Positions 3,925 to 55,527 of a DNA stretch of 64,000 nucleotides are shown piece after piece. Both the position numbers and the translations under genes were made by a program. Under the pieces are notes generated by a model. It saw nothing but the letters and a program-made list of their open reading frames with translations, was not told the DNA's origin and ran no database searches. Position 1 is the first letter of the stretch; every line of letters starts with the position of its first letter. Source of the DNA: Alloalcanivorax xenomutans (GTDB lineage Bacteria; Pseudomonadota; Gammaproteobacteria; Pseudomonadales; Alcanivoracaceae); the NCBI RefSeq assembly GCF_900217905.1, contig NZ_OBMO01000011.1:62001-126000 (forward strand), read 5' to 3'.

Positions 3925-3980
3925 GGCCGGATTCCAATCCGGCCAGCCCCGCGCCACTATTCACTGTTCACTATTCATTG
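3925..3980. repeat. Heptamer-array element, member A (partial)
   Basis: A 9-bp stem with a 2-nt loop (GGCCGGATT / AATCCGGCC, 3925-3944) is followed by CCGCGCCACTA and then three consecutive 7-mers of the TTMACTR type at 3960-3966, 3967-3973 and 3974-3980. It ends four bases before the prkA stop codon (minus strand), so the arm starts directly after the prkA stop in the sense direction. It is the only member here lying inside an operon, between prkA and yeaH. No opposite arm is visible. Confidence 0.7.
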
Positions 3981-3984
3981 CCCT

Positions 3985-5907
3985 TTATTGCGCCTTGCGG
4001 ACCCGCAGGTACCATTCGGACAGCAGCCGAACCTGTTTCTCGGTGTAGCCGCGATCCATCATGCGTTTGACGAAGTTGTCGTGCTTGCGGCGATCCTCTT
4101 CGCTGCCTTTCGGGTTGAAGGAAATGACCGGCAACAGCTCCTCGGTGTTGGAGAACATTTTCTTCTCGATGACATCACGAAGCTTCTGATAGCTGAGCCA
4201 GCTTGGATTGCGGCCGCTGTTGTTGGCCCGCGCCCGCAGCACGAAGTTGACCACCTCGTTGCGAAAGTCCTTCGGGTTGGAAATGCCCGCCGGCTTTTCG
4301 ATCTTTTCCAGTTCCTCGTTGAGTGATTGGCGATCGAATATTTCGCCGGTATCCGGATCCCGGAATTCCTGATCCTGAATCCAGAAGTCGGCGTAAGTAA
4401 CATAGCGGTCGAAAATGTTTTGCCCGTACTCGGAGTAGGATTCCAGATACGCGGTCTGGATTTCCTTGCCGATGAATTCCACGTAACGCGGAACCAGGTA
4501 CTCCTTGATGAAGCGGTGGAATTGCTCCTGGCGTTCCTGGGGGAACTGCTCCTGTTCGATGCGCTGTTCGAGAACGTGGATCAAGTGCACCGGGTTGGCC
4601 GCTATCTCGGAGTGATCGAAGTTGAACACCTTGGAGAGGATCTTGAAGGCGAAACGGGTGGACAGGCCGTCCATGCCTTCGTCGACGCCGGCCATATCCC
4701 GGTATTCCTGAATCGACTTGGCTCTCGGGTCCACGTCCTTCAGGTTCTCGCCGTCGTAAACGCGCACTTTGGAGTAAATGCTGGAATTCTCCGGTTCGCT
4801 GATCCGCGTTAACACCGAGAACTGAGCCAGCATGTGCAGCGTGTCCGGGGCGCACTGGGCATCACGCAGACTGGAGTTGCGCAACAGCTTCTCGTAAATC
4901 ATCTGTTCTTCGGTGACGCGCAGGCAGTAAGGCACCTTGACGATGTAGACGCGGTCGATGAACGCCTCATTGTTCTTGTTATTCTTGAAGGTGTGCCATT
5001 CGGCTTCGTTGGAGTGGGCCAGCACGATGCCATCGAAGGGAATCGCGCCCATGTGCTCGGTGCCGTTGTAGTTGCCTTCCTGGGTGGCGGTGAGTAGCGG
5101 GTGCAGCACCTTGATCGGCGCCTTGAACATCTCGACGAATTCCATCAGGCCCTGATTGGCCCGGCACAGGCCGCCGGAGAAGGCGTAGGAATCCGGGTCA
5201 TCCTGGGAGAAATCCTCCAGCTTGCGGATGTCCACCTTGCCCACCAGAGCGGAGATGTCCTGATTGTTTTCGTCGCCGGGTTCGGTTTTCGATATGGCGA
5301 TCTGATCCAGTATGGAGGGGTAGCATTTCACCACCCGGAACTGGCTGATATCACCACCGTATTCATGCAAACGCTTGACCGCCCAGGGCGACATGATGGT
5401 GCGCACGTAACGGCGCGGAATGCCGTACTCCTCTTCCAGAATGGGACCGTCCTCGTCGGCGTCGAACACGGACAGAGGGGACTCATTCACCGGCGATCCC
5501 TTGATGGCGTAGAACGGCACCTTCTGCATCAACGCCTTGAGTTTCTCCGCCAGGGAGGATTTGCCGCCGCCAACCGGGCCGAGCAGGTAGAGAATCTGTT
5601 TCTTTTCTTCCAGCCCCTGGGCGGCGTGGCGGAAGTAGCTGACGATATTCTCGATGACCTCTTCGAGGCCGTAGAATTCGTCGAAGGCGGGATAGCGACG
5701 GATGATTTTGTTGGAAAAGATCCGGGAAAGCCGTGGATCCTTGGAGGTGTCCACCAGTTCAGGCTCACCGATCGCCATGAGCATGCGCTCGGGAGCGCTG
5801 GCGTAGGCGCTGGGGTCGCTCTTGCAGAGCGCCAGATACTCCTCCAGGGACAACTCCTCCTGCTGAGTGGCGTCAAACCGGGCCTGATAATGGCTGATAA
5901 TGCTCAT
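3985..5907 (-). CDS. prkA: PrkA-type serine protein kinase / AAA+ ATPase
   Basis: 640-aa PrkA (YeaG) protein, the usual family length. Members have an N-terminal AAA+ module and a C-terminal kinase-like domain. They act in stress and nitrogen-starvation physiology, and some act as ATP-dependent proteases. A Walker A motif GPVGGGKSS is at about 110-118, preceded by the conserved EEVIENIVSYFRHAA segment. The ATG at 5907 has GGAGGGAG at good spacing. It is the first gene of prkA-yeaH-spoVR, and a long AT-tract-containing intergenic region lies upstream. Upregulation in stationary phase is expected from homologues but not shown by the sequence. Confidence 0.93.
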   Translation of the reverse strand: MSIISHYQARFDATQQEELSLEEYLALCKSDPSAYASAPERMLMAIGEPELVDTSKDPRLSRIFSNKIIRRYPAFDEFYGLEEVIENIVSYFRHAAQGLEEKKQILYLLGPVGGGKSSLAEKLKALMQKVPFYAIKGSPVNESPLSVFDADEDGPILEEEYGIPRRYVRTIMSPWAVKRLHEYGGDISQFRVVKCYPSILDQIAISKTEPGDENNQDISALVGKVDIRKLEDFSQDDPDSYAFSGGLCRANQGLMEFVEMFKAPIKVLHPLLTATQEGNYNGTEHMGAIPFDGIVLAHSNEAEWHTFKNNKNNEAFIDRVYIVKVPYCLRVTEEQMIYEKLLRNSSLRDAQCAPDTLHMLAQFSVLTRISEPENSSIYSKVRVYDGENLKDVDPRAKSIQEYRDMAGVDEGMDGLSTRFAFKILSKVFNFDHSEIAANPVHLIHVLEQRIEQEQFPQERQEQFHRFIKEYLVPRYVEFIGKEIQTAYLESYSEYGQNIFDRYVTYADFWIQDQEFRDPDTGEIFDRQSLNEELEKIEKPAGISNPKDFRNEVVNFVLRARANNSGRNPSWLSYQKLRDVIEKKMFSNTEELLPVISFNPKGSEEDRRKHDNFVKRMMDRGYTEKQVRLLSEWYLRVRKAQ

Positions 5908-6253
5908 TCCTCACTCCCTCCTGGCGGCGCTTGAATGTCAAGCCGTCACTTTCTACATGAAAATAAACCCTTAACGAAATGGATGCGGCGCGAAGATCAG
6001 GGAATCCCGTCCACGGGATGTCGGTGACCGGCCTTGTCTTTAGCATGGCGCCAAAACAAAGTCTGAGTCAAAGCCAAGTCGTAAAAAATCGTCAGGAACG
6101 ATTTTTGACGTCGCCGCAGCGACGGCCCGGAGGGTGGCCGCCATGGACGGTGGCCACAAAAAAAATTTTGTTTTTTTTGCAGCGATGGAATGAACCGGCG
6201 GAGCTGAATTCGGTCACCGCCGGAACGTCATGAAAAGAGGGGAGGAGGGAGGA
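5908..6253. other. Intergenic region between prkA and apaH
   Basis: 346 bp without a credible gene. It holds a 9-bp AT-rich stem-loop (AAAAATCGT 6084-6092 / complement 6098-6106), a GTCGC/GCGAC hairpin near 6110-6123, and a GTGGCC/GGCCAC pair (6134-6139/6152-6157). These are followed by A8-T4-G-T8 (6158-6178), which should be intrinsically bent, and then by a 7-bp stem CCGGCGG/CCGCCGG (6195-6201/6217-6223). The last stem and the T/A run may end apaH transcription on the minus strand. The prkA promoter must lie in the 5908-6100 part, but I cannot point to convincing -10/-35 boxes. Confidence 0.5.
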
Positions 6254-7066
6254 TCAACGGCACTGGCAAGCGATACGGAGGCCGTCTTCCAGGCGCAGTG
6301 CGGTAAGCTGGCCGCCCCATACGCAGCCGGTATCCAGGGGTTCCACGTCATTGGCGCTGGCCCGGCCTTCCAGGGCCGCCCAGTGACCAAACAGGATGCG
6401 ACGGCCCAGGTCGCGCCGGCGAGGATGTTCAAACCAGGGCATATAGCCCTCGGGCGGCTGATCCGCTTCGCCTTTGCTGCCCAGATCCAGTTCACCGGCA
6501 TCGTTGACGAAGCGCATGCGGGTGAAATGGTTGGTGATCACTCGCCACCGCTCCGGACCTTGCAAGTCATCACGCCATCCCGCTGGTTCGTTGCCGTACA
6601 TATGGGCGAAAAAGGTGCTCGCCTGCTCGCCATCGGCGAGTACCGCGGTGATTTCCCCGGCCCGTTCACGGGCTTGTTCCAGGCTCCATAGCGGGGGCAT
6701 GCCGGCGTGGGCCATCACCGCGTTGAATTCGGGCAGGTCGATCAGCAGCGGTTGGCGCTGCAGCCAGTCCAGCAGGGTGTCCCGGTCCTTCGCCTCAAGG
6801 ATCGCCGCCAGGGTATCCTTGCTCCTGGCGTGTGTCTGCCCGTGGGCCACCGCCAGCAGGTGCAGATCATGATTGCCCAGTACGGTGAGGACATTGTCCC
6901 GCAAGTCATGGATTCGCCGCAGGGTGCCGAGCGAGTCCGGGCCGCGATTGACCAGGTCCCCGGCCAGGACCAGTTGATCGCGGTCCGCCTTGAAGCGAAT
7001 CCGCTCCAGCAGGGCCTCGAAGGGGCCCAGACAGCCCTGGATGTCGCCGATGGCGTAGGTGCTCAT
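6254..7066 (-). CDS. apaH: Symmetrical bis(5'-nucleosyl)-tetraphosphatase
   Basis: 270-aa metallophosphatase that hydrolyses Ap4A to two ADP. ApaH also removes Np4 caps from bacterial RNA in E. coli. All calcineurin-fold metal motifs are visible near the N-terminus: GDIQG (7-11), GDLVNRG (36-42) and GNHD (64-67). It lies downstream of apaG in the classic surA-pdxA-rsmA-apaG-apaH order. The 72-nt gap to apaG suggests co-transcription. Confidence 0.95.
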   Translation of the reverse strand: MSTYAIGDIQGCLGPFEALLERIRFKADRDQLVLAGDLVNRGPDSLGTLRRIHDLRDNVLTVLGNHDLHLLAVAHGQTHARSKDTLAAILEAKDRDTLLDWLQRQPLLIDLPEFNAVMAHAGMPPLWSLEQARERAGEITAVLADGEQASTFFAHMYGNEPAGWRDDLQGPERWRVITNHFTRMRFVNDAGELDLGSKGEADQPPEGYMPWFEHPRRRDLGRRILFGHWAALEGRASANDVEPLDTGCVWGGQLTALRLEDGLRIACQCR

Positions 7067-7138
7067 GGGAAAATTCCGTCAGGCTCGCTATGGGTGGTTA
7101 TTCGGAGTCGGTCAGGGTGCCGCTTCCGCCGCCGGGGT

Positions 7139-7528
7139 TCAATGCAAGGCTCGATCGGCGGCCAGGGTGAAAGCCGGGATCGGCGCATTGAAGCAGGTGC
7201 CGTCCTCGGACAGCATCTGATAGTTGCCGCGCATGCTGCCGACGGCGGTTTCCAGGATGGCGCCGCTGGAGTACTGGAACTCCTGGCCCGGCGCCAGCTC
7301 CGGCTGCTGGCCGAGAACGCCTTCGCCGTGGACTTCCTGTACGCGCTGATCGCCGTCGGTGATGATCCAGTGCCGGGTCAGCAGGCGCGCGCCCTGGCTG
7401 CCGCGGTTGATGATGCGGATGTGGTAGGCGAACGCCCAGCGCTTCTGGTCGGCGTCGCTTTGCTCCGGCAGGTACTCGCTTTCCGCGAACACCTCGATGC
7501 GGTAGGCATCGTTGTTACTGTCGCTCAT
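7139..7528 (-). CDS. apaG: ApaG protein (Co2+/Mg2+ efflux-associated domain)
   Basis: 129-aa ApaG, a small immunoglobulin-like beta-sandwich protein whose molecular role is unsettled. The YHIRIINRGSQGARLLTRHW segment and the C-terminal MRGNYQMLSEDG segment, which follows SSGAILET, are characteristic. It sits between rsmA and apaH, the position it occupies throughout gammaproteobacteria. The start is at the first Met, after a purine-rich GAGAGGGAATC. Confidence 0.95.
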   Translation of the reverse strand: MSDSNNDAYRIEVFAESEYLPEQSDADQKRWAFAYHIRIINRGSQGARLLTRHWIITDGDQRVQEVHGEGVLGQQPELAPGQEFQYSSGAILETAVGSMRGNYQMLSEDGTCFNAPIPAFTLAADRALH

Positions 7529-7576
7529 GATTCCCTCTCGCGGGGTCGGAAACCCGGTGGGCGGCGTCCTCCGCCG

Positions 7577-8350
7577 TCAGCCGGTGGCGTTGGCCAGCGC
7601 GACGTAATCCGCCACCGAAAGATGATCGGGACGCAGGCCGGGGTCGATGCCCAGGGCATCGAAAATGTCCGGTTCCACCAGGGTCTTCAGCGCATTGCGC
7701 ACCGCCTTGCGGCGCTGGGTGAAGGCCTGGTTGACCAGTTTGCCAAGATAGACCGGATCCCGGGCCGGCCAGGGCGCGGTGGCGTGCGGGGTCAGTCTGA
7801 CCACGGCGGAATCCACCTTGGGCGGCGGCTGGAACGCGCCCGGGGGCACGAAGAACAGATAATCCGCCTGGCAGTGGTATTGCACCATCACCGACAGCCG
7901 GCCGTAATCGCCCGTGCCCGGCGCCGCGGTGAGCCGGTCCACCACCTCCTTTTGCAACATGAATGTCATGTCGCCGATCACTTCCGCCTGTTCCAGCAGG
8001 TGGAAGATCAAGGGGGTTGAAATATTGTACGGCAAATTGCCCACCACCCGCAGCTTGAGGTCGCCGGCCAGGGGGCGGAAGTCGAAACGCAGGGCGTCCG
8101 CCTGATGGATGGTCAGACGTTCCTCGGGCACCGCCTCGCGCAGTAAGTGGATCAGGTCACGGTCCAGTTCCACCACGTCCAGATGCGCCACCTGCTCCAG
8201 TAGTGGATAGGTGAGCGCGCCGCGTCCGGGGCCGATTTCCACCAGCTTCTGGCCGGCCATGGGGGCCACCGTGCGGACCAGACGATCGATGATGCCCGGG
8301 TCATGCAGAAAGTGCTGCCCGAAGCGTTTGCGGGCGCGGTGTTCGGTCAT
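7577..8350 (-). CDS. rsmA: 16S rRNA (adenine1518-N6/adenine1519-N6)-dimethyltransferase
   Basis: 257-aa KsgA/RsmA, which dimethylates two adjacent adenines in helix 45 of 16S rRNA using S-adenosylmethionine, late in 30S assembly. The motifs present are the N-terminal RKRFGQHFL, the SAM-binding VEIGPGRG (about 37-44) and the catalytic NLPYNIST (about 106-113). Its start overlaps the pdxA stop by four bases (ATGA), which indicates translational coupling in the lptD-surA-pdxA-rsmA-apaGH run. Confidence 0.96.
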   Translation of the reverse strand: MTEHRARKRFGQHFLHDPGIIDRLVRTVAPMAGQKLVEIGPGRGALTYPLLEQVAHLDVVELDRDLIHLLREAVPEERLTIHQADALRFDFRPLAGDLKLRVVGNLPYNISTPLIFHLLEQAEVIGDMTFMLQKEVVDRLTAAPGTGDYGRLSVMVQYHCQADYLFFVPPGAFQPPPKVDSAVVRLTPHATAPWPARDPVYLGKLVNQAFTQRRKAVRNALKTLVEPDIFDALGIDPGLRPDHLSVADYVALANATG

Positions 8351-12885: not shown

Positions 12886-13059
12886 CGGCTGCTCAGAACA
12901 GGTAAAAAGGCCGTTTTAAACCGCAGGACGCCCCCTTGGCCGGGATTTGTCCCGGTGTTTCCCGATGCCGGCGCTCGGGTCGGGGGCACCTCGGGGCAGG
13001 AAACAGGGCGACACGGTAGTCTTCGTCAATCGCCGCAGTGTAAACGAATGGGATGGGCA

Positions 13060-14711
<1,652 letters not shown>

Positions 14712-14743
14712 GCCCGCGGGGCCGGGCGGTGCTGGAGAATTTG

Positions 14744-16213: not shown

Positions 16214-16235
16214 CGAGGAAGAAGCGGACTATCGA

Positions 16236-16775: not shown

Positions 16776-16776
16776 C

Positions 16777-30287: not shown

Positions 30288-31082
30288 ATGAGCAACGGCA
30301 CCATTCTTGATCGCATCATCGAACGTAAAGAGCAGGAGATCGTCGACGGCAAACGCCGTTACAGCATGGGGGATTTGCGGGCGCTGGCGGAGAATCAGCG
30401 TCGGGCGAGAGGTTTCCATCGCAAGCTGTATGATCGCGTGGCCGAGGGCAAACCGGCGGTGATCGCGGAAATCAAGAAAGCCTCCCCCAGCAAAGGGGTT
30501 ATTCGTGAGGACTTCGATCCGGTGGATATCGCCCGGCGCTATGAGGAAAATGGCGCCGCCTGCCTGTCCGTGCTCACCGATCAGGAGTTCTTCCAGGGGC
30601 ATGAGGACTATCTGCGCGCCGCCCGTAACGCGGTGTCGTTGCCGGTACTGCGCAAGGATTTCATTGTTGACCCCTGGCAGGTGTTCGAAACCCGGGCCAT
30701 GGGGGCGGACGCCATTCTGCTGATCGTGGCGGCACTGTCCGATGCTCAGATGGATGAGCTCTACCACGCCGCCCAGCAGGCCGGCTGTGATGTGCTGGTG
30801 GAAGTGCACTCCGGTGAGGAGCTGGAGCGGGCGATGAAGCTGAACGTGGAAGTGGTCGGCATCAACAACCGCGACCTGCGCACCTTCGAAACCCGTCTGG
30901 ACACCACTCTGGAACTGGCTCCGCAAGTACCCGCCGATCACCTTGTGGTCACCGAGAGCGGCATCCACACCCGCGCCGACGTGCGCCTGATGCGTGACAA
31001 CGGTATCCACGGTTTCCTGGTCGGCGAGGCCTTCATGCGCGAGGAAGACCCCGGCGCGGCGCTGAAAAAGCTGTTTTTCTAG
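30288..31082 (+). CDS. trpC: Indole-3-glycerol-phosphate synthase
   Basis: 264-aa TIM-barrel enzyme that ring-closes carboxyphenylaminodeoxyribulose-5-phosphate to indole-3-glycerol phosphate. There is no fused TrpF domain. Catalytic and binding segments AEIKKASPSKG, CLSVLTD, LRKDFI, VGINNRDLRTF and ESGI are visible. The frame is open from 30123, but ATG about 30288 (MSNGTILDRII) follows CCAGGAG and is the family start. Its TAG stop is formed by the first unit of a heptamer array, so the 3' end of the gene abuts the intergenic element directly. Confidence 0.96.
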   Translation: MSNGTILDRIIERKEQEIVDGKRRYSMGDLRALAENQRRARGFHRKLYDRVAEGKPAVIAEIKKASPSKGVIREDFDPVDIARRYEENGAACLSVLTDQEFFQGHEDYLRAARNAVSLPVLRKDFIVDPWQVFETRAMGADAILLIVAALSDAQMDELYHAAQQAGCDVLVEVHSGEELERAMKLNVEVVGINNRDLRTFETRLDTTLELAPQVPADHLVVTESGIHTRADVRLMRDNGIHGFLVGEAFMREEDPGAALKKLFF

Positions 31083-31234
31083 TTAATAGTGAACAGTGAA
31101 TAGTTAGCAGCGAAAATCAAAAGCAAAGAAAAAGCCAAGAGGCCGCTCCAACTTCTGGACGCGGCCTCTTGGCTTTCAGTGTCCGCGGCGCTTTATCCGC
31201 GAGCTATTCTCTGTTCCCTATTAACTATTCGCTG
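31080..31234. repeat. Heptamer-array palindromic element, member B
   Basis: The left arm has five 7-mers of type YAGTKAA (31080-31114, including the trpC stop TAG). A central 16-bp perfect stem follows (31131-31146 / 31161-31176, core GCGGCCTCTT) with an inner TCCA/TGGA pairing. The right arm has four 7-mers of type TTMACTR (31207-31234), ending six bases before the crp stop. The flanks of the stem are A-rich before and T-rich after on both strands, as in a bidirectional terminator. It lies between convergent trpC and crp. Confidence 0.85.
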
Positions 31235-33513: not shown

Positions 33514-33659
33514 CAGTGAAGAGTTAACAATTAACAGTTAACAGCGAAAATCAAAAGATAAAGAGGCCGCGCCCAACACCTGGACGCGGCCTCTTTCGTT
33601 GCAGCGTACGGAGAAATTCATCCGCGCGCTATTCACTGTTAACTATTCACTGTTCACTA
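33514..33659. repeat. Heptamer-array palindromic element, member C
   Basis: The left arm has five 7-mers (33514-33548), starting six A-rich bases after the speD stop. The central hairpin is AAAGAGGCCGCG (33560-33571) with its complement at 33585-33596. The right arm has four 7-mers (33632-33659). The last right-arm unit, TTCACTA, contains the coq7 stop codon (TAG on the minus strand). It lies between convergent speD and coq7 and is the clearest member of the family. Confidence 0.88.
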
Positions 33660-44861: not shown

Positions 44862-44943
44862 GCGCTGGCGGTCCGTGGGTCGGATTTTTCGTGTAGGGAC
44901 TGTGTAAGGTGTTTTACCGAATCATGGTGCCCCGCCGCAACTG

Positions 44944-45828: not shown

Positions 45829-45984
45829 GACACCTCCATGGAGAAGCGGCAGTATAGCGATGACAGGAAAAATTTGCGCCGTGGTGGGCTTGGCCGTCAT
45901 GGCCATTGACACTTGCGGACCGGCTATTTTTTCACCGGCCGTTAAGGGGTACTATCCGGATTCGTCTATCGGACTGACCAGCCT

Positions 45985-46554
45985 ATGACTGAAGATGCCG
46001 CCGAGTTGATATTGGTGCTGATGGTGATCGCCAGCGCCTTGCTGTACCGGTTCGCGATGCCGCGTTTGCGGCGTCCGCGTGTGCCGGCGCGCACCTCGCT
46101 GGATCTCGAGAAAGTCATTCTGGTCGGCATGATGTTTTGCACCATGGCGGTGATTCCTTTCCTGGATATGATGGTGCCCTGGTTCGAGTTCGCCGACATC
46201 GTATTCATGGATGAAGTGGCCTGGCTGGGGCTGCTGCTCGGCAGTGCCGCGGTGTGGCTGTTCTGGCGGGCCAAGGAGGATCTGGCCCGATGCTCCCGAC
46301 GTCCGGTGGATAGCGGTATCTATCGTTATCTGCGCCATCCGGCCTGTGCCGCCATGCTGCTTTGGTCCCTGGCGCAGTTGCTGCTGTTACAGAACTGGCT
46401 GGCTGGCCCCGCGGCGGCCCTGACCTTTACAATGGTTTACTTGCTGCAGTTGCCCAGGGAAGAGCAACGTATGCTGGAGCGGTACGGTCATCGCTATCTG
46501 GACTATATGGCGCGCACTCCGGCGATTCTGCCGCGTTTCTCTCGTTATCGTTGA
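45985..46554 (+). CDS. Isoprenylcysteine/phospholipid methyltransferase-like membrane protein
   Basis: 189-aa integral membrane protein with about five helices and the ICMT/PEMT C-terminal signature SGIYRYLRHPACAAML ... EEQRMLERYGHRYLDYMARTP. These motifs form the SAM-binding site in the family. Bacterial members methylate unknown substrates. It is followed 63 nt later by a kinase-like gene on the same strand. Together the two separate accBC from prmA. Confidence 0.82.
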   Translation: MTEDAAELILVLMVIASALLYRFAMPRLRRPRVPARTSLDLEKVILVGMMFCTMAVIPFLDMMVPWFEFADIVFMDEVAWLGLLLGSAAVWLFWRAKEDLARCSRRPVDSGIYRYLRHPACAAMLLWSLAQLLLLQNWLAGPAAALTFTMVYLLQLPREEQRMLERYGHRYLDYMARTPAILPRFSRYR

Positions 46555-46592
46555 TTTTCCCTTTTCGCGCCCCCATAGCGGTGGTCGCCTTT

Positions 46593-46614
46593 AAAACGGT
46601 TCAGGAGCCGTTTT
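46593..46614 (+). promoter_or_regulatory. Hairpin displaying a ribosome-binding site in its loop
   Basis: AAAACGG (46593-46599) pairs with CCGTTTT (46608-46614). The 8-nt loop contains AGGAG, four bases before the stem's 3' half ends, and the ATG of the kinase-like gene is at 46618. It resembles a weak intrinsic terminator (stem then T4) that also carries the Shine-Dalgarno sequence. Confidence 0.45.
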
Positions 46615-46617
46615 ACC

Positions 46618-47280
46618 ATGATTCGGATTCATCCCCTCCGCCGCCAGCAGCTGGAGGACGTGATCAGCCACTCGGAAGTGGTCGAAAGCGACGGGCACGG
46701 CATCAAGGTGCTGCGTCTGCGTGATGGCCGCTACCTGAAATACTTCCGGCGCAAGCGTTTCTTCAACCGCGAATTGTTGTCCCCGGCGGCGGTACGGTTT
46801 GCCCGCCATGCCCGGCAACTGGCACAACTGCGCATCCCCACCCTGGAGGTGGAAAGCCTGCACCGCATTATCGGTGAGCCGCATACGGTGGCGGTGTACC
46901 AGCCGATGCCGGGTCTGACGTTGCGTCAGATGTTGGCTCGCGGGCAGGTGGATACCCAACTGATGTACCGGGTGGGCGTATTTATCGCCCGTCTGCACCG
47001 GCTGGGTGTGTTTTTCCGTTCCGTGCATCCGGGCAACATCGTCATCGACGGTCTGCGCATTGGTCTGATCGATGTGCTGGATATGAAGGTGCGGCCCTGG
47101 TCCATGTCCCGTTGGGCCCGGCGCCGTAACTGGCTGCACTTCCTGCGTTGCGAGGAAGATCGCCCGCATCTGCGTGATGATCTGGTGGAGGCGTTACTGG
47201 TGGGCTACCGGGATGCCGCCGACCTGCCGTCCCATGAGATCGGCGAGGTGGCGGAGCGGGTCCGGCATTTGCTGGGCTGA
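46618..47280 (+). CDS. Lipopolysaccharide kinase-like (toluene tolerance/InaA-type) protein
   Basis: 220-aa protein with a reduced protein-kinase fold. The region LHRLGVFFRSVHPGNIVID followed by IGLIDVLDM corresponds to the catalytic and metal-binding loops. In active kinases the first loop reads G-D-L-H-P-G-N; here the Asp position is Ser (R-S-V-H-P-G-N). Similar pseudomonad proteins labelled toluene tolerance appear to share this, so it may be a family trait. The target, possibly an LPS core sugar, is unknown. Its stop is directly followed by a 17-bp hairpin. Confidence 0.65.
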   Translation: MIRIHPLRRQQLEDVISHSEVVESDGHGIKVLRLRDGRYLKYFRRKRFFNRELLSPAAVRFARHARQLAQLRIPTLEVESLHRIIGEPHTVAVYQPMPGLTLRQMLARGQVDTQLMYRVGVFIARLHRLGVFFRSVHPGNIVIDGLRIGLIDVLDMKVRPWSMSRWARRRNWLHFLRCEEDRPHLRDDLVEALLVGYRDAADLPSHEIGEVAERVRHLLG

Positions 47281-47321
47281 GGCATCGCGGCTCTTTCCAT
47301 ACAAGAAAGAGCCGCGATGCC
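47281..47321. terminator. 17-bp hairpin filling the gap between two convergent stops
   Basis: The 17-bp stem is perfect: 47281-47297 pairs with 47305-47321 around a 7-nt loop. It occupies exactly the bases between the TGA of the kinase-like gene (ends 47280) and the TAA of accC (starts 47322). The stem core is GCGGCTCTTT. Confidence 0.75.
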
Positions 47322-48668
47322 TTAATGATTACCCAGCTTCTTTTCCAGGTGGTGGATATCCACGCCGCCTTCCTGGAACGCGGTGTCGCGGAAGATCTTG
47401 TCCCGATGCAGGGCCACGTTGGTCTTGATGCCTTCCACCACGATCTCGTCCAGAGCGTTACGCATGCGGGCAAACGCCACGTCGCGGTTCTCGCCCCAGG
47501 TGATGATCTTGCCGATCAGTGAGTCGTAGTAGGGCGGTACGGTATAACCGCCATAGACGTGGGAATCCACCCGCACCCCATTGCCGCCCGGTGCGTGGAA
47601 GTAGGTGATCTTGCCGGGGCTGGGTACGAAGGTATTGGGATCCTCGGCATTGACCCGCACCTCGATGGCGTGGCCAAGAAAAGTGATGTCTTCCTGCTTC
47701 AACGTCAGGCCTTCGCCGCCGGCGATGCGCAGCTGTTCCTTGACGATGTCGACGCCGGTGATCATCTCACTGACCGGGTGCTCCACCTGCACGCGCGTGT
47801 TCATCTCGATGAAGTAGAAGCCTTCATTTTCGTACAGGAACTCAAAGGTTCCGGCGCCCCGGTAGTTGATCTCCTTGCAGGCATTGACGCAGCGTTGCGC
47901 CACTTCTTCCTTCAGGTGAGCCGGAATGCCGGGGGCCGGAGCCTCTTCCACCACTTTCTGGTGACGGCGCTGCAGGGAGCAGTCCCGGTCGCCGAGGTGT
48001 ATGGCGTGGCCGGCACCGTCGGAGAGCACCTGAATCTCCACATGGCGTGGCTTCTGCAGGAATTTCTCCATGTACACGGTGGCATCGCCGAAAGCGTTTT
48101 TCGCTTCGGAACGGGTTAGGGTCACCGCGTTGAGCAATTGATCCGCATGCTCCACCACGCGCATGCCCCGCCCGCCACCACCGGCGGCGGCCTTGATGAT
48201 GACCGGATAGCCAATCTGCTCGGCCATGGCCTGGGTGGCTTCCGGGTCATCGCCCACCGGACCATTGGAGCCGGGAACGGTGGGGACGCCGGCTTTTTTC
48301 ATCGCCTCGATGGCGGACACCTTGTTGCCCATCAGGCGGATGGTGTCGGCGCGCGGCCCGATGAAGGTGAAGCCGGAACGTTCCACGCTTTCGGCGAAGT
48401 CGGCGTTTTCCGCCAGAAAGCCGTAACCGGGGTGAATGGCATCCGCGTCGGTCACTTCCGCCGCGCTGATGATGGCGGGGATGTTCAAATAGGAATCGGT
48501 GGATGGCGCCGGGCCGATACACACCGCTTCATCGGCGAGACGCACGTGCATCAGATCGCGGTCCGCCTTGGAGTACACCGCCACGGTACGGATGCCCATT
48601 TCCTTGCACGCGCGCAGCACGCGCAGGGCGATCTCGCCGCGGTTGGCAATGACGACTTTTTCCAGCAT
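47322..48668 (-). CDS. accC: Biotin carboxylase subunit of acetyl-CoA carboxylase
   Basis: 448-aa ATP-grasp enzyme that carboxylates the biotin on AccB in the first step of fatty-acid synthesis. [18 protein letters not shown], the Gly-rich [11 protein letters not shown], the [14 protein letters not shown] segment and the biotin-site residues near [12 protein letters not shown] are present. It follows accB by 11 nt in aroQ-accB-accC. Confidence 0.97.
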
Positions 48669-48679
48669 TTCGACCTCCG

Positions 48680-49132
48680 TTAAACGATGGAGAACAACGG
48701 CTGGTCGAATTCCACCGGTTCGCCGTCCTCGACCAGGATGGCATCAATAGTGCCGGATTTGTCCGCTTCGATCTGATTCATCATTTTCATCGCTTCGACG
48801 ATGCACAGCACGTCGCCGGCGTTGACCTTCTGGCCCACTTGGGCGAACGGGGTGGCGCCGGGGGAGGAGGCCCGGTAGAAAGTGCCCACCATGGGAGAGC
48901 GCACCAGATGGCCGGCCGGGGAGGCCGGTTCCGGTTCGGCCGCCGGGGCCGCGGCGGGTTGCGGAGCCGCCGGAGCGGGCGCCACCGGGGCGGGGGCAGC
49001 GGGGGCGGGCGCGGCGTTGCGCCAGCCGCCCCGGGTGATGCGTACGGATTCTTCGTTTTCGTGAATTTCCAGTTCTTCGATTCCGGATTCTTCCAGCAGC
49101 TCGATCAATTTCTTGATTTTTCGAATATCCAT
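48680..49132 (-). CDS. accB: Biotin carboxyl carrier protein
   Basis: 150-aa AccB. A short N-terminal domain ([17 protein letters not shown]) is joined by an Ala/Pro-rich linker (about 40-72) to the biotinyl domain. The biotin acceptor is Lys116 in EAMKM, with the thumb-like [17 protein letters not shown] present. It lies between aroQ (34 nt) and accC (11 nt). Confidence 0.97.
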
Positions 49133-49166
49133 GTCCAGTCCTGTTGGGAGCTGTTGATGTTAAAAG

Positions 49167-49619
49167 TCAGATGTCGTCGTCGGTGCCCAGACGGCGGATG
49201 GCCGCGTCCAGCGCCAACTGGTAACCGTCGGCGCCGAGACCGCAGATCACTCCCTCGGCGATATCCGAGAAATAAGAGTGATGGCGAAAGGTTTCGCGCC
49301 GGTGAATATTGGAAAGGTGCACCTCGATAAACGGAATGCTCACCGCCAGCAGGGCATCTCTCAGCGCCACGCTGGTGTGGGTGAAGGCCGCCGGGTTGAT
49401 CAGAATGAAGTCGACACCTTCCGCGCGGGCGGCATGGATGCGCTCAATCAACTCGTATTCCGCATTGCTTTGCATATGCTGAAGATGATGGCCGGCCTTC
49501 CGGGCCCGGATCTGCAGGGCCTGGTCGATTTGCGCCAAACTAGTGGCGCCATATTTGTCCGGCTCGCGTTGGCCGAGCAGATTCAGGTTGGGTCCGTGCA
49601 GAACCAGAATGGTGGCCAA
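49167..49619 (-). CDS. aroQ: Type II 3-dehydroquinate dehydratase
   Basis: 150-aa dodecameric enzyme of the shikimate pathway. [17 protein letters not shown] carries the catalytic Tyr; [16 protein letters not shown] and [17 protein letters not shown] hold the substrate-binding and catalytic His/Arg. It heads the aroQ-accB-accC operon, a standard gammaproteobacterial arrangement downstream of dsbD. Confidence 0.97.
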
Positions 49620-49803
49620 GATGGATACCCCTGAATGTGTCGTTATCTGCGGTGAACAGGAGGGAAAAACGGCATCAGGCCGGGGCTTTTCCCGAAGTTT
49701 GCAGTCTAGGGGGAATCGCCCGGCGAAAAAAGAACTTTACACTATTCGTTACATGTACCGGCGCCCCTGATGACGGGATCGGGACGCCGGTCACGGCGGC
49801 GGG

Positions 49804-51726
49804 TCAGGAGGCGGTGACCGGCAAGACAGTTTGTTCCAGATGGCGGATGAACCGCTCTGGCCCCATCTCGCCGAGCACCCGGGACTCCGGGACTTCCTCG
49901 CCAGCGGGGGTGAAGAACACCAGGCTGGGCAGACCGAAGATGTTGTATTCGGTCATGATCGCCTGGTTTTCGCTGTTGATGTCGGTGATATCCACCCGAT
50001 AAAGATCGAACCCCTCCATGGTGGCCAGCACGTCCGGGTGGCTCAGCGTGGTTTCCTCCAGCACCTTGCAGGCCACGCACCACTCGGCGAAGAAGTCCAC
50101 CAGCACCGGCCGTCCGGCCCGGGAGGACTCCGCCAGGGCCTGACGCAGCGCCGCCTGGCCGGTGAGTGTGCGCCAGGGACCGTGGTCCTCCTTGGCCGCC
50201 GTGGGTTGCGCCGTACCGGTAGTAACGGCCACCGGTGCCGCCGGTTGCCGCCAGTGGGCCAGCGGCTGCCATGGGTCGCGGGCGCCGGAGGCGGCGCCGA
50301 TCAACAAAATCACGCCATACAGCGTCAGCACCAGAGCCAGGCCCCGTTTCAGGCGGGAGCCGCCTTCTTTCACCGGTTCCAGGGCGCCCAGTTGGACGCC
50401 GTAAATGGCCAGCAACAGGCCGTACAGCGCCAGGGTCACCGGCGCCGGCACGATGCGGTCCAGCAGCCAGATGGCGACCCCGAGCATGACCACGCCGAAG
50501 AAGCGTTTGATCTCCTCCATCCACAGGCCGGCCCGGGGCAGCAAATGGCCGCCGCCGGTGCCGAACAGGATCAGCGGCACGCCCATGCCGATGGACAGCG
50601 CGAACAGGCTGGCGGCGCCGGTCAGGGCATCGCCGCTGCCAGCCACATAGATCAAGGCGCCGGCGAGGATCGGGGTGACGCAGGGGGATACCACCAGGGC
50701 GGAGATCATGCCAAGCAGGGCGGCGCCGGCCAGCCCCTTGCGCTTCGGTCCAGTCTGGTTGAGACGGTCGCGCAGCGCCGCCGGTAACTGCAACTCATAA
50801 AGGCCGAACATGGCCAGTGCCAGCAGCACGAAGATCACTACACTGGTGATGATCGCGGCCGGCTGTTGCAACAGGAACTGGAGGTTCAGCCCGGCTCCGA
50901 ACAGGGCCACCAACAGCCCCGCCAGGGTGTAGGGCACCGCCACGCCGAGCACATAGGCGCTGCTGAGCAGGAAGCCACGGCGGGCGCTGGGGTGCTGTTC
51001 CCCGGCGATGATACCGGAGAGGATCGGAATCATCGGGAAGACACAGGGCGTGAATGCCAGCAATAGACCGCCGGCGAAGAACAGGGCGATCACCAGCCCC
51101 AGGCTCTGACCGGAGATCCAGCGATTAAAGGCGTTGGCGTCCTCTGAAAACAGCGTTTCCAGGAACCCCCCGTCGCCTGTGCTCGCGGCGGCGGTTGGCG
51201 TGGCGGCCGGTGCGGTGGCGCTCAGCGCCGTGGGGGGCTTGCCGGGACGGGGCTCCTCGAAGGCGAAGGTCTTGCTGGCCGGCGGGTAGCACAGCAAATC
51301 CTCGATGCAGCCCTGATAACGCACCTCCAACTCGGTATCGGCCAGCGGCACGCTGCGCAACGGCAACGACACTTCCAGCCGCTGGTAGAATACCTCGACG
51401 TCACCGAATATGGGATCCACCTTCGGTTTGCCCGCGGGCATCTGGAAACCGGAAAAGTCATCGAGAACGTTGCCGTTGGTGTCGCGGAGAATGAACTCAA
51501 AGCGTTGGCGGTACAGATAGACGTCGTCGAGAAGTTCAAACCCCACCAGCACGGTTTGTTTGTCCCAGTCGGCATCCGCCATCACCTGGATCGCCTCGTC
51601 CACCGTGGGCGGCTGGTCGTTGCCCAACCCGCCGCTGCTTCCCCCGCCCAGAGACAGCGCAAGCGCGGGGCTGGCGAGCAGCCCCAGCACAAAAAGGGAT
51701 AATAGTGAACGCAAGCGTTGTGACAT
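49804..51726 (-). CDS. dsbD: Thiol:disulfide interchange protein DsbD
   Basis: 640-aa inner-membrane reductant shuttle that passes electrons from cytoplasmic thioredoxin to periplasmic DsbC/DsbG and CcmG. After a signal peptide come the periplasmic alpha domain (Cys140 and Cys146, in QGCIEDLLCYPP) and eight membrane helices. The paired cysteines in FTPCVFPMIPILSGI and VVSPCVTPILAG lie in that block. The periplasmic gamma thioredoxin domain holds CVAC at about 550-553. ATG 51726 is preceded by GGAGGAA; the upstream extension to 51777 is not coding. All three redox pairs are intact. Confidence 0.95.
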   Translation of the reverse strand: MSQRLRSLLSLFVLGLLASPALALSLGGGSSGGLGNDQPPTVDEAIQVMADADWDKQTVLVGFELLDDVYLYRQRFEFILRDTNGNVLDDFSGFQMPAGKPKVDPIFGDVEVFYQRLEVSLPLRSVPLADTELEVRYQGCIEDLLCYPPASKTFAFEEPRPGKPPTALSATAPAATPTAAASTGDGGFLETLFSEDANAFNRWISGQSLGLVIALFFAGGLLLAFTPCVFPMIPILSGIIAGEQHPSARRGFLLSSAYVLGVAVPYTLAGLLVALFGAGLNLQFLLQQPAAIITSVVIFVLLALAMFGLYELQLPAALRDRLNQTGPKRKGLAGAALLGMISALVVSPCVTPILAGALIYVAGSGDALTGAASLFALSIGMGVPLILFGTGGGHLLPRAGLWMEEIKRFFGVVMLGVAIWLLDRIVPAPVTLALYGLLLAIYGVQLGALEPVKEGGSRLKRGLALVLTLYGVILLIGAASGARDPWQPLAHWRQPAAPVAVTTGTAQPTAAKEDHGPWRTLTGQAALRQALAESSRAGRPVLVDFFAEWCVACKVLEETTLSHPDVLATMEGFDLYRVDITDINSENQAIMTEYNIFGLPSLVFFTPAGEEVPESRVLGEMGPERFIRHLEQTVLPVTAS

Positions 51727-52109
51727 TGATTCCTCCAGATAACCGGTTTTGTCCCTGGCCCGGTCTCCCCCAAACATAAGAGCACGGCCATGACCCGCTG
51801 GCGGTGGCCCCGGTGCTACCCGTATTCCTGATACTCCGGGTAAATATAGAGGCCGCCTGCGCGGATCGGTTCCCAGTCTGCGCCTCGTGGATTAAAGGGG
51901 CTTTAAGGCAGTGATAGCAGGTGGCGGTGAAGAACGCATTGTGCCCCCATGCCGAAATGGACGCAAAGACCGCCGCCGGCGGCCGGGATCCTGTCGTTGG
52001 CGACAAAGACTGCTATATTGGCGCACAATGCCGTGGAGTCCCGAGCGCGGACTCCGAGATGATACAAAAGGCCGTTCCCGGCCTGACAGGATGCAAGTGG
52101 GGATCACCG
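51727..52109. other. Intergenic region between dsbD and the DUF2333 gene
   Basis: 383 bp of divergent control region without a credible gene. On the plus strand an extended -10 element TGCTATATT (52011-52019) would start transcription near 52026, 84 nt before the DUF2333 ATG. A short ORF continuing upstream of that ATG is in frame but lacks a ribosome-binding site and resembles no protein. On the minus strand I see no clear dsbD promoter. Confidence 0.45.
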
Positions 52110-53102
52110 ATGAGTAATGAGAAGTTCTCCCAGAAGATGGGCGACCGGTTGCTGGACCCGGCCAATAACCGGATATGGAAAGGCGCCCTGTGGCTGATCG
52201 TGATCCTGCTTCTGGTGGACGTACTGCTCGGCTGGTACTGGAGCTGGGAGCCGGATCTCCAGGAAGTGCGGGCACTCGCCAATGCCCAGCCTGGAGAGGT
52301 CACTACGCTGGAAGTGATCAACGTGGCCAGTACCCTGCTGGACAAACCGGGCGGTTATTTGAGCAACGACGTGCTGCCGCATCGACTGTGGCTGGATAAC
52401 ATGCCGTCCTGGGAGTTCGGCGTGTTGGTGCAGTTACGCGATATGGTGCGGGTGATGCGCCGGGACATGAGCCGCTCCCAGTCCCAGAGTCAGGAAGACC
52501 GTAATCTGGCGATTGCCGAGCCGCAGTTCAATTTCGACTCCCGCAGTTGGGCCATGCCCGCCACGGAAAGCGAGTACCGTAGGGGTATCCGCGCGCTGGA
52601 GCGTTACCTGGAGAGCCTGCGCAGTGGCGATGGCCGGTTCTACGCCCGGGCCGACAACCTGAATTCCTGGCTCAACGAAGTACAGAACCGGCTTGGCGCC
52701 CTCAGCCAGGACCTCAGCCGCAGCGTCGGGCGCACCACGCTGGACACCGAGGAAAATACCCCGGTGACTCAGCTGGACAGCAAGGAACGGGTGGTGAAAA
52801 CCCCGTGGATGAAAATCGATAATGTTTTCTATGAAGCGAGAGGGGCGTCCTGGGCGCTGGTGCAACTGATGCGGGCGCTGGAAGTGGATTTCGCCGACGT
52901 GCTGCGCAAGAAGAACGCCACCGTCAGCTTCCGGCAGATGGTGCGCGAACTGGAAGCCACCCAGGAAACGCTGTGGAGCCCGATGGTTCTGAACGGCTCC
53001 GGCTTCGGCATCTTCGCCAACCATTCCCTGGTCATGGCCAACTACCTGTCCCGCGCCAACGCCTCCCTGATTGATCTTCGGAAGTTGCTGCAGGAGGGGT
53101 AG
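52110..53102 (+). CDS. DUF2333 family membrane-anchored protein
   Basis: 330-aa protein with one N-terminal membrane helix (about 27-47, LWLIVILLLVDVLLGWYW) and a large, mostly helical periplasmic part. That part contains LPHRLWLDNMPSWEFGVLVQLRDM and a C-terminal NHSLVMANYLSRANASLIDLRKLLQ. It matches the DUF2333 family of gammaproteobacteria, which has no known function. ATG 52110 gives the usual start (MSNEKFSQKMGDRLLDP). Its stop lies six bases upstream of heptamer element D. Confidence 0.82.
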   Translation: MSNEKFSQKMGDRLLDPANNRIWKGALWLIVILLLVDVLLGWYWSWEPDLQEVRALANAQPGEVTTLEVINVASTLLDKPGGYLSNDVLPHRLWLDNMPSWEFGVLVQLRDMVRVMRRDMSRSQSQSQEDRNLAIAEPQFNFDSRSWAMPATESEYRRGIRALERYLESLRSGDGRFYARADNLNSWLNEVQNRLGALSQDLSRSVGRTTLDTEENTPVTQLDSKERVVKTPWMKIDNVFYEARGASWALVQLMRALEVDFADVLRKKNATVSFRQMVRELEATQETLWSPMVLNGSGFGIFANHSLVMANYLSRANASLIDLRKLLQEG

Positions 53103-53108
53103 GAAAAG

Positions 53109-53326
53109 CAGGGAACAGTTAATAGTGAATAGTTAATAGCGAAGAAAAAGGTTTGCGGTTCCGCAAGGCGTGTTTGTGTATCCGCAACTTTCTCTGAGAA
53201 ACCTGTTTGATGGTTTTTCCTGAAAACGAAGAGGCCGCGCCCAGCCCTTGGACGCGGCCTCTTTGCTGTCCGATCAACCTTTCTTGTCTCGCGCGCTATT
53301 CACTGTTCACTATTAACTATTCACTG
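53109..53326. repeat. Heptamer-array palindromic element, member D
   Basis: The left arm has five 7-mers (53109-53143), starting six A-rich bases after the DUF2333 stop. A small TTGCGG/CCGCAA hairpin follows (53153-53166). The central stem is AAGAGGCCGCG (53229-53239) with its complement at 53253-53263. The right arm has four 7-mers (53299-53326), preceded by CGCGCGCTA. The right arm is inside the cmoA reading frame: it encodes the last residues and the stop codon. This is the longest member because of extra sequence between the left arm and the stem. Confidence 0.87.
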
Positions 53327-54062
53327 CTTTTTTTGTTCCGAGAAAACCGGCGAAGTTATACCACTTGAAAAACACGTCCACGTTGTCCAGGCCGGCGCGG
53401 GAGAGGAGCTTGAGGTTCTCATCCAGGCGGTAGGGGATCAGGACGTTTTCCAGGGCCTCGCGTTTTTGCGCGATTTCGGTTTCCGAATAGCCGTTGCGCT
53501 TCTTCATGTCGTAATAGAGCTTGATCCACAGACGGTTGAGGAAGGCGTCGTTGCCCAGCACTTTTTCCACCAGAATCAAGGTGCCGCCGGGTCTTAGTCC
53601 CGAGACGATTGAGTACAGCAGGGCCTCGCGATTGAGCGGGCGCACGAATTGCAGGGTGAGATTGAGCACCACCACCGAGGCGTCTTGTACCTGGACGCCC
53701 TCATTGAGATCGGCGTATTCCAGACGCACACGGCCAGACAGGCATTGCTCGGCCAGATTGTGCCGGGCCCGTTCGAGCATCGCCGGGGAGTAATCGCAGC
53801 CCACCAGTTCCACACCCGGCGCCACGGTTTGATCCAGCGTTTTCAAGGTGATGCCGGTGGAGCAACCCAGGTCGTAGATGCGGGAGCCCGGTACCGCGAA
53901 TTCCCGGGCCAGTTCCCCGATCATCCGCTGTTGCTCCCAATATTGAGGGATGCTGCGATCGAGCATGTCGTCGAAAACGGCGGCGGTGTTCTCGCCGAAA
54001 TCGAAATCGCTGATTGCCTGTTCCTCGGCGGCGAAGAGACGGTCCTTTTTTTGGGATGTCAT
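53313..54062 (-). CDS. cmoA: Carboxy-S-adenosyl-L-methionine synthase
   Basis: 249-aa SAM-fold enzyme of the CmoA family, which converts SAM and prephenate to carboxy-SAM for tRNA wobble uridine modification (cmo5U). YDLGCSTGITL, GCDYSPAMLERAR, VVLNLTLQFV and NGYSETEIAQKREALENVL match the family. The usual partner cmoB is not in the window. The C-terminal AVNS and the TAA are encoded by heptamer element D, so the natural C-terminus has been replaced by repeat-derived residues. No effect on the catalytic domain is expected. Confidence 0.83.
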   Translation of the reverse strand: MTSQKKDRLFAAEEQAISDFDFGENTAAVFDDMLDRSIPQYWEQQRMIGELAREFAVPGSRIYDLGCSTGITLKTLDQTVAPGVELVGCDYSPAMLERARHNLAEQCLSGRVRLEYADLNEGVQVQDASVVVLNLTLQFVRPLNREALLYSIVSGLRPGGTLILVEKVLGNDAFLNRLWIKLYYDMKKRNGYSETEIAQKREALENVLIPYRLDENLKLLSRAGLDNVDVFFKWYNFAGFLGTKKAVNS

Positions 54063-54267
54063 AAAGTTGTCCCCGAAATCAACCAGGATCGGTGGTCATT
54101 GCCTTGGTTCTGATGCGCTGGCGCATGCCGTCTCCCTGGAGTATCCCGCAGGATCATGACAGTTGTGTTGATTTCGGGGCCACGGCTGGAATTCAGGGCG
54201 CGCGCGGAAAGAGGGTATTCCGCGCGGTACACACCCAATTGATGCGATAGTCGAACGGGAGGGCCTC

Positions 54268-55416
54268 TTGTCCAAAACCTCGATGCATAAGTATAAGTGG
54301 GAAAAATACCTTCCTATCCGGCGCACCAAACTGCGCAGCTATCTGGTGGGGGGCGGCGTGCTGCTCGGCCTGGCGGGGTTCAATACCATGGCGGCGTTGC
54401 CGTTTTCGGTGGGCGCGGTGTTCATGGCCCTGGCGGCCTGGCTGCACGTTTGGGCGAAAGGGCATTTGGACAAAAACGCCACTCTGACCCGGTCCGGTCC
54501 TTACCGTTGGGTCCGCGACCCATTTCATCTGTCCAATTTTTTCATGGACCTGGGGCTGTGCCTGATCATCAATAACGGGGTGTTCAGCTTGGTGATGATG
54601 ACGTTCTGGGTCATCGCCTATCGGCACCGGTTATGGGAGGAGGATCAGCAACTGGTGGAGATTTTTGGTGACGAGTACCTGGATTACCGCGCCCGGATTC
54701 CACGCATGATTCCCTACAGGCCGCCGATGGAAAAGAAGTACGACAAACCTTTCTCGGTCAGGCACGCGCCGATCTACCGGGGCAGCGTCTGCACCCGGCT
54801 ATTCCGGCTCGCTTCTTATCCTTATTTATTTTTTGTTGCCGCGGAGATCGGTCAGAAAGGCACCGACCTGCTTGCGGCGCAAGAGCATCCCGCTTTTTAC
54901 TGGGCTCTGACGGGCTTTCTGTTCTTCCACTTCCTGTCCCGAGCGGCGGGTGAGATCACTAAAAGGCGAGCCTCCATCTTGCCGCTGTGGACGTTGCGTC
55001 ATCCGGCCCGGGGCGTGATCGTGTCGATAATGGTGGCGGCGCTGCTGGCGGTGGACATGTTGTGGTCCGGACCGCGCATTCTGGAATGGCATCTGGACAG
55101 AGGGCAGTGGCTGATTTTGTTGGTGGCGGCGATGTTGTTGGTGGCGACGCTGCGCGGGCTCTGGCACAGCGTGCGCTTTCGCCGTCTGATCGAGGGCACC
55201 GCTCTGGTCGTGGCCTGGTTGTTCACCCCGGTGCCGTGGCTGGCGCTGGTGCCGGCCTGTTATTTCTCCGCCGCCTTTCTGTACGGTGATCCGGACCAGC
55301 CCGAGGCCGATGTGGACCATGTCTTTCTGGCCACGAAAACCGACGGCGCGGCGTTGGCGGCACTGGGGTTGTGGATGCCACTGATACTGATCGGTCTACC
55401 CGCCACCTGGTTCTAG
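54268..55416 (+). CDS. Methyltransferase-like (PEMT/ICMT) membrane protein with extra C-terminal domain
   Basis: About 382-aa membrane protein. The first about 150 residues resemble a complete PEMT/ICMT domain: SGPYRWVRDPFHLSNFF, where family members read HP rather than DP, and EEDQQLVEIFGDEYLDYRARIPR. The rest (about 180-382) adds some five to six further helices with no family I recognise. Start codon choice is TTG 54268, right after GGGAGGG, or ATG 54283 further away. It converges on a PF10118 gene with element E between. Substrate unknown. Confidence 0.65.
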   Translation: MSKTSMHKYKWEKYLPIRRTKLRSYLVGGGVLLGLAGFNTMAALPFSVGAVFMALAAWLHVWAKGHLDKNATLTRSGPYRWVRDPFHLSNFFMDLGLCLIINNGVFSLVMMTFWVIAYRHRLWEEDQQLVEIFGDEYLDYRARIPRMIPYRPPMEKKYDKPFSVRHAPIYRGSVCTRLFRLASYPYLFFVAAEIGQKGTDLLAAQEHPAFYWALTGFLFFHFLSRAAGEITKRRASILPLWTLRHPARGVIVSIMVAALLAVDMLWSGPRILEWHLDRGQWLILLVAAMLLVATLRGLWHSVRFRRLIEGTALVVAWLFTPVPWLALVPACYFSAAFLYGDPDQPEADVDHVFLATKTDGAALAALGLWMPLILIGLPATWF

Positions 55417-55433
55417 GGCGTTCCATAAGACGG

Positions 55434-55527
55434 GGCCGCGCCCAGGGCTAGGGCGCGGCCTCCATGCTTTCGGATGAACCTGTCCTGTCTCGCGCGCTGT
55501 TAACTATTCCCTGTTAACTATTAACTG
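55434..55527. repeat. Heptamer-array element, member E (one arm)
   Basis: The hairpin GGCCGCGCCC (55434-55443) pairs with 55451-55460. It is followed by the family-specific TGTCTCGCGCGCT and four 7-mers (55500-55527: TTAACTA, TTCCCTG, TTAACTA, TTAACTG). The arm ends three bases before the stop of the PF10118 gene. No left arm is visible after the methyltransferase-like gene. Confidence 0.8.

Follow-up and report, generated by a model that had tools for sequence, protein, structure and literature searches.

Dispersed inverted heptamer arrays at gene 3′ ends in Alloalcanivorax xenomutans and their probable PF05635 partner

The intergenic elements considered here lie in a 64,000-nucleotide stretch of the genome of the marine bacterium Alloalcanivorax xenomutans (contig NZ_OBMO01000011.1, positions 62,001 to 126,000; hereafter the window) and carry inverted tandem arrays, or arms, of a 7-bp unit, read on the plus strand as YAGTKAA at the left and TTMACTR at the right. 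With a probability of roughly 60%, they are non-autonomous members of a dispersed class of elements with inverted 7-bp arrays whose partner is a protein of PF05635, a family labelled "23S rRNA intervening sequence". PF05635 genes lie between such arrays both in Gammaproteobacteria and in other phyla, the gene and the dispersed elements of this genome have a common arm layout and inner edge, and the heptamer changes fast while its period, inversion and place persist. The arrays suggest a family of spreading DNA elements that has gone unrecognised. A first-pass annotation of the window had not foreseen that the heptamer is not defining, relatives differing even at the same position, or that the arrays belong with PF05635.

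The flanks of 90 PF05635 loci were scanned for tandem arrays, measured from the profile match rather than from the gene ends, with the match position deduced in 13 of the 90 (loci of odd length). At the best 30 loci from 77 gammaproteobacterial genomes, a non-random set picked by the PF05635 gene alone, a period-7 array was present on 43 of 60 flanks and an array of another period on one; both sides carried arrays in 18 loci and an inverted partner was found in 23 of 30. Of 52 control windows at 1 kb distance, 2 had period 7, and of 60 shuffled flanks none. Thirty loci from relatives of the host gave period 7 on 35 of 60 flanks (control, 2/58), and 30 loci from other groups on 29 of 60 (control, 5/57), with period 8 on 6 further flanks, period 10 on 2 and period 4 on 1. 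Period-8 arrays around PF05635 genes of other groups were seen at loci L461, L467, L473 and L475. A further 20 gammaproteobacterial loci had period-7 arrays on 19 of 40 flanks (control, 1/40), in 13 of the loci, with an inverted partner in nine. Read along the gene, the consensus heptamer contained AG in 47 of 65 loci and CT in 12, 25 of the 90 having been dropped because the frame was not intact or no period-7 array was present; polarity is thus kept.

The gene and the arrays were also compared genome by genome, with tallies over relative and class (gammaproteobacterial) genomes made by hand. PF05635 was found in 18 of 19 relatives with at least four array matches versus 3 of 38 others, one of the three below the cut-off (Fisher, 8e-11); in one of these three exceptions, G023, the gene has flanking arrays of its own heptamer, CAAGGNG. 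Of the 30 genomes of the class sample that carry AACTNNN arrays, 16 had PF05635 versus 41 of 244 others, and in G192 all ten AACTNNN matches lay on the two sides of the PF05635 gene. An AACT core as common denominator of the arrays was considered and rejected, AACTNNN arrays occurring in 30 of 274 class genomes and the reversed control, which is a heptamer pattern too, in 23 (with fewer matches). Across phyla, PF05635 was present in 34 of 40 genomes chosen for TTMACTR arrays, by hand from 115 loci with the Alcanivorax type left out, versus 77 of 369 in Gammaproteobacteria, a figure that is not the background of those phyla; it was present in 0 of 14 control genomes. Many PF05635 matches were seen in small genomes, with 11 in G380 (1.5 Mb, contig C1, several of identical score) and 21 in G435 (Patescibacteria).

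The host genome (G000; 4,350,020 bases in 47 contigs) holds a single PF05635 match, outside the window (contig C4, 111817-112113, minus strand), with TTMACTR-type arms. The gene lies between genes recognised by eye as nrdR and glyA and is not inserted in a 23S rRNA gene. Two inner edges recur among 70 arms of this genome, alpha (CAGCGAAAA / TTTTCGCTG) in 22 and the CGCG-rich beta in 26. One arm of the PF05635 gene, with the units TTCGCTG TTAACTG TTCCCTG TTAACTA, has the alpha edge; the arms carry the edge TTTTTCGCTGTTAAC, also found in dispersed elements, and their layout matches that of the window elements. A PF05635/TIGR02436 four-helix-bundle protein is encoded in each of three two-armed elements whose cores measure 394-443 bases; their arms are TCMACTR in two and GCTTGNR in the third. 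The closest solved structure to the PF05635 protein by sequence is 2rld. Translation of these three long cores revealed no transposase, no genome search aimed at transposase families having been made.

The period, and not the TTMACTR heptamer, is the essential feature. In a census without a preset sequence, in which an inverted partner was required within 500 bases, period 7 accounted for 46 of the 51 tandem arrays, period 14 for 4 and period 6 for 1. No such arrays were detected in 354 kb drawn from 20 other genomes, 18 of which belong to other families, nor, at the same threshold, in 200 kb of G006, which we take to be A. dieselolei B5. Among 57 relatives, matches to TCMACTR and to GCTTGNR were each found in 17 and matches to TTMACTR in 13, and the genome counts of TTMACTR/TCMACTR form a series (G000, 64/9; G007, 56/30; G008, 19/102; G006, 0/158). 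Two gene pairs of the window were followed through the relatives. TTMACTR lay between the orthologous genes at both in G005 and G007, and at the second also in G010 and G011; TCMACTR lay at both in G006 and G009, while G008 was mixed at the first and TCMACTR at the second. G001 had CTTTNAA and GRCGTCY at these pairs, and G002 had GCTTGNR at the first. Array-free gaps were found in G003, G004 and G012 at the first pair and in G002, G004 and G012 at the second.

The heptamer also varied around the gene at fixed sites. At the nrdR-glyA site the gene arms were TTMACTR in G000, G005, G007, G011 and G033, TCMACTR in G006, G008, G009, G010, G027 and G031, and TCMATTR in G019, G024 and G029. At one orthologous gene position, identified as one site by collinear flanks on both sides in 12 loci, six heptamers (GCTTGNR, CTTTNAA, AACTTGN, AGCTCGT, ATCCTGN and AACTCGN) were found in 12 genomes. 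A palindromic hexamer plus one base was rejected as a general rule for the unit, as not all heptamers fit. Arrays of GNATCCT or TTNAAAG were seen nested inside GCTTGNR-armed elements (L258, L268).

Replacement in place was followed in 178 kb over four close genomes. Opposite six TTMACTR gaps of the host, 15 of 15 readable orthologous gaps held arrays (10 TCMACTR, 4 TTMACTR and one hybrid), and at most sites the flanks were unaltered up to the array edge. Cores of replaced elements were 0.64-0.73 alike at three sites and 0.34 alike where the core type differs, with neighbour genes above 0.9; at gap 145347 the G007 core was alike only as its reverse complement (0.80; orientation judged by eye). 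The convergent gap at contig C22, 80500-80552, of the host genome contained four different inserts across G000, G007, G006 and G008, one of them with GCGTGNN-type heptamer arms. The occupancy of all 15 gaps speaks for terminator cassettes spread by gene conversion, in which the arms would be recombination homology at convergent gene ends and PF05635 units one cargo among several. So do an outer TTCACTA unit surviving beside TCMACTR arms at one site and the cores of G006 TCMACTR elements, which are mutually 0.77-0.85 alike versus 0.67, 0.73 and 0.64 to the orthologous TTMACTR cores. Such cassettes would nevertheless leave unexplained why, in other families and phyla, PF05635 genes lie between period-7 arrays of their own sequence, and why single arms occur without a hairpin; we consider them a very unlikely account.

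The arrays far exceed chance expectation. The two-unit pattern with at most two mismatches matched 30 times in the window versus 0.81 expected. Genome-wide, exact three-unit matches numbered 64 versus 0 for the reversed pattern, in agreement with the earlier prediction of many copies, and two-unit matches with at most one mismatch numbered 284 versus 5. At least 44 elements, 26 two-armed and 18 single-armed, were delineated in 39 stretches of the host genome, a lower bound drawn from part of the genome-wide matches and with L179 counted as two single arms. The first-pass description of a dispersed, high-copy family of inverted heptamer arrays around hairpins was supported, as was its distinctness from repetitive extragenic palindromic (REP) sequences and bacterial interspersed mosaic elements (BIMEs); its exact heptamer is not defining and single arms are common. 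All 26 two-armed elements had one plus-strand arrangement, YAGTKAA to the left and TTMACTR to the right, and arms typically comprised four or five units. Ten longer elements align as one family, comprising the beta edge, a AAAGAGGCCGCG hairpin, two TTGCGNATNCGCAA-like modules and the alpha edge; the remaining cores hold a REP-like hairpin or are nearly empty. The outer flanks are purine-rich and end in AAAG on the left, and are CTTTT-like on the right.

REP-like hairpins (TGTGGGAGCTTGCCTGCAAGCGAA) were observed to fill the core of some heptamer-armed elements (L153, L168, L183 and others). Insertion-sequence ends (TGGACTGGCCCC...AAGTAGACAC) were observed within element cores at contig breaks (L154, L156, L167, L169 and L179, with a related end at L180), and the heptamer-armed elements may be a preferred landing place for that insertion sequence.

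Abundant short tandem units could also be neutral heptameric microsatellites, arrays generated by slippage and kept only where harmless, by stop codons, with the PF05635 link a matter of hitch-hiking. Some arms are indeed long pure runs (L152, L412), and an excess of heptamer repeats in bacteria has been published and ascribed, as a suggestion, to the contact length of the polymerase (Mrazek 2007, cited by PMC4679880). Slippage, however, gives no inverted pairs, and 34 adjacent left-minus/right-plus pairs within 400 bp were counted versus one of the opposite arrangement over the 115 loci. It would likewise fail to explain units mixed at fixed degenerate places, the shared inner edges, or the difference between PF05635 flanks and control windows, and the conserved four-unit order in G027 leans to inheritance as copied blocks. 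We regard neutral microsatellites as unlikely.

The placement of the arms was determined in the 39 stretches with gene calls from a codon-usage script, not a published gene finder. The arms had been said to abut stop codons; this held and extended to 58 of 70 arms, whose start, read in sense, lies at most 24 bases inside a stop codon or 8 past it. The same placement was found at start codons for 0 of 70 arms, and 376 of 4000 random non-coding positions satisfied it at stop codons. Both ends were so placed in 18 of 26 pairs, as were 14 of 18 single arms, and the array's own TAG, TGA or TAA often serves as the stop codon. Provision of stop codons in all frames was dropped as a reason for the sequence, GCTTGNR arms in sense having no stop codon (judged by eye).

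Within the window, TTMACTR/YAGTKAA arrays were found at all five places to which the first-pass annotation had ascribed one plan, and its location of four of the five between convergent genes agreed with the gene calls. Arrays on each side, as it had also claimed, were confined to 31080-31234, 33514-33659 and 53109-53326. In the first of these, the left arm (31080-31114, minus strand, five units) opens with the TAG that is the stop codon of the plus-strand gene and is followed by a GC-rich hairpin, AAGAGGCCGC...GCGGCCTCTT (31137-31170), and a right arm of four units (31207-31234, plus strand). In the second, the left arm (33514-33548, minus strand, five units) has the inner unit TTCGCTG (alpha edge), the GC-rich hairpin AAGAGGCCGCG...CGCGGCCTCTT spans 33561-33595, and the right arm (33632-33659, plus strand, four units) is preceded by CGCGCGCTA (beta edge) and runs into the stop codon of the minus-strand gene. 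The third has a left arm (53109-53143, minus strand, five units) with the inner unit TTCGCTA, a TTTGCGGTTCCGCAAG...TATCCGCAAC module present in longer family members (53152-53187), a GC-rich hairpin (53229-53263) and a right arm (53299-53326, plus strand, four units) with CGCGCGCTA before and CTTTTTTT after it. The other two places hold a single right-hand arm of four units on the plus strand, for which no left arm was found: the TTMACTR arm at 3953-3980 ends 4 bases short of the stop codon of the minus-strand gene, and that at 55500-55527, preceded by CGCGCGCTG, follows a variant GC-rich hairpin (55430-55464). The stem core GCGGCCTCTT, described earlier as common to all, was exact in the three two-armed elements, variant at 55430-55464 and absent at 3925-3980. 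The stem pattern alone was not enriched (22 found versus 29.6 expected, at most three mismatches), and no Rfam match reached the gathering score in the window. In the two elements whose RNA was folded, the two arms were predicted to pair (z, -8.6 and -11.0).

The mechanism that we favour is as follows. The PF05635 protein would bind its own heptamer arms, as DNA or as RNA. Through this binding it may spread and homogenise the arms in trans, as REP-associated tyrosine transposases (RAYTs) are thought to do for REPINs (REP doublets forming hairpins); the elements would thus belong to a REPIN/RAYT-like system in which a PF05635 protein, in place of a transposase, acts in trans. Elements would then survive at gene 3′ ends, being harmless or useful there. 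Stem-loops and CTTTTT flanks are present in the elements, of which 18 of 44 are single-armed; paired arms would form a long stem which, with the trailing T tract and the inner GC hairpin, may act as a bidirectional terminator or yield an RNA processed by RNase III in the manner of the rRNA intervening sequences.

Several results weigh against this reading. No transposition or other movement of the elements was seen, PF05635 genes mostly occupy a few conserved sites, and only three pairs of similar genes at different sites were found. Array-bearing G012 and 14 of the 30 class genomes with AACTNNN arrays gave no PF05635 match, and 7 of the 20 further class loci had no period-7 array. Periods 8 and 10 outside Gammaproteobacteria make 7 dominant and not absolute. 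Only 8 of 13 informative genomes had at the gene the heptamer, TTMACTR or TCMACTR, that prevails genome-wide; G010, G019, G024, G027 and G031 disagreed. Mantel comparison of heptamer with protein similarity gave 0/1999 overall and 269/1999 for pairs below 60% identity; the idea that protein and heptamer co-evolve tightly was accordingly not retained, such a relation being confined to close proteins. A terminator scan of 46000-64000 gave 22, slightly more than the 15.1 of shuffles (standard deviation, 4.0). Similarity between arms was no higher within an element than across elements (0.840 versus 0.829; 165 of 2000 shuffles), which gives no sign of selection for exact pairing. Arms matching unit by unit, as seemed to be the case in L148, L149, L150 and L184, were not supported by this permutation test, and both snap-back copying and selection on exact pairing were given up on that account.

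Direct repeats at the element edges were likewise not in excess in sets of 20, 19, 6 and 6 elements, the one exception being length 3 in G027, with 2 of 19. This lack of a target-site duplication bears equally on ordinary miniature inverted-repeat transposable elements (MITEs), whose terminal inverted repeats the arms would be, moved by a conventional transposase and with PF05635 as a passenger or an adapted element. In G027, of another genus, one four-unit order dominates among the arms, their outer edge is clean, and similarity is 0.87 for arms versus 0.50 for cores, as MITEs would have it; the ten host elements that align as one family have two distinct ends. The arm sequence, however, changes while its position stays, and the three translated long cores each code for PF05635 and for no transposase, so that MITEs have in our estimate little probability.

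If this reading of PF05635 is correct, a very widespread protein family of unknown function would gain a role, separately published heptamer repeats would be unified, rRNA intervening sequences would become particular instances of a general element, and the abundance of heptamer repeats in bacteria would become testable through one small protein. We know of no mobile-element class with a constant period and a changing sequence. A bolder version, which we hold only tentatively and think doubtful as a whole, is that a ring-shaped PF05635 protein reads and propagates 7-bp units, fixing the period while the letters drift, that the heptamer of a lineage is rewritten genome-wide, and that the arrays of Alcanivorax, Xanthomonas, Beggiatoa and cyanobacteria, together with the rRNA intervening sequences, form one selfish class without a recognisable transposase.

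In the open-licence literature on heptamer repeats and on PF05635 with repeats, no paper joining PF05635 to dispersed heptamer arrays was found, and exact-letter searches for the heptamers returned nothing relevant. The family design had been thought unnamed, yet inverted GGGAATC heptamers near stop codons have been published for Xanthomonas and read as G-quadruplex DNA (PMC4692102). These GGGNATC repeats of Xanthomonas and Nostoc have a degenerate place and mostly four units; in two genomes they form 70 and 75 closely spaced inverted pairs, and on the coding strand they adjoin or overlap stop codons (PMC4692102), thus resembling the present arrays. Unlike them, they were given a G-quadruplex explanation that is not possible for AT-rich heptamers; TTMACTR, TCMACTR, CTTTNAA and others contain no run of three or more G per unit. 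In G422 the PF05635 gene is bracketed by GGGAATC arrays, and G391, the other GGGNATC-bearing genome, gave no PF05635 match. The TAACTGA direct repeats of Beggiatoaceae, cyanobacteria and Bacteroidetes are likewise intergenic heptamer arrays with an AACT core, patchy over phyla; in Beggiatoaceae they differ in being mostly direct and before start codons, and the available part of PMC4679880 proposes no partner gene.

Comparable to the gene-bearing members, though not to the window elements, are the 23S rRNA intervening sequences, in which a PF05635 gene also lies between inverted terminal repeats. Tandem GACAGAT heptamers precede the S23p gene there, the terminal stem is 28 bp (four times seven), excision is by RNase III and the sequence is thought selfish (PMC4990558). 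Compared by description, they differ in lying inside rRNA genes, and the available part of PMC4990558 draws no link to dispersed intergenic arrays or to a periodicity of 7 in general. Pentamers are formed by one member of PF05635 (PMC10053308, PMC4990558), and Avd, the accessory protein of diversity-generating retroelements, has a PF05635-like fold and works with a reverse transcriptase (PMC10053308).

With MITEs the elements share terminal inverted repeats. They also resemble the REPIN/RAYT system: both comprise dispersed inverted extragenic pairs, a mostly single-copy partner gene with the same flanking repeats, and several flavours per genome (PMC3116915). The doublet arrangement of that system has its counterpart in the host genome, where the PF05635 flanks and the dispersed elements share TTMACTR arms and an inner edge. 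The repeats, however, are palindromes of 16-25 bp there (PMC3116915) and tandem 7-bp arrays here, the partner is a Y1 (IS200-like) tyrosine transposase there and a PF05635 four-helix bundle here, as the PF05635/TIGR02436 matches of the three gene-bearing elements indicate, and here the arm sequence is replaced at fixed positions.

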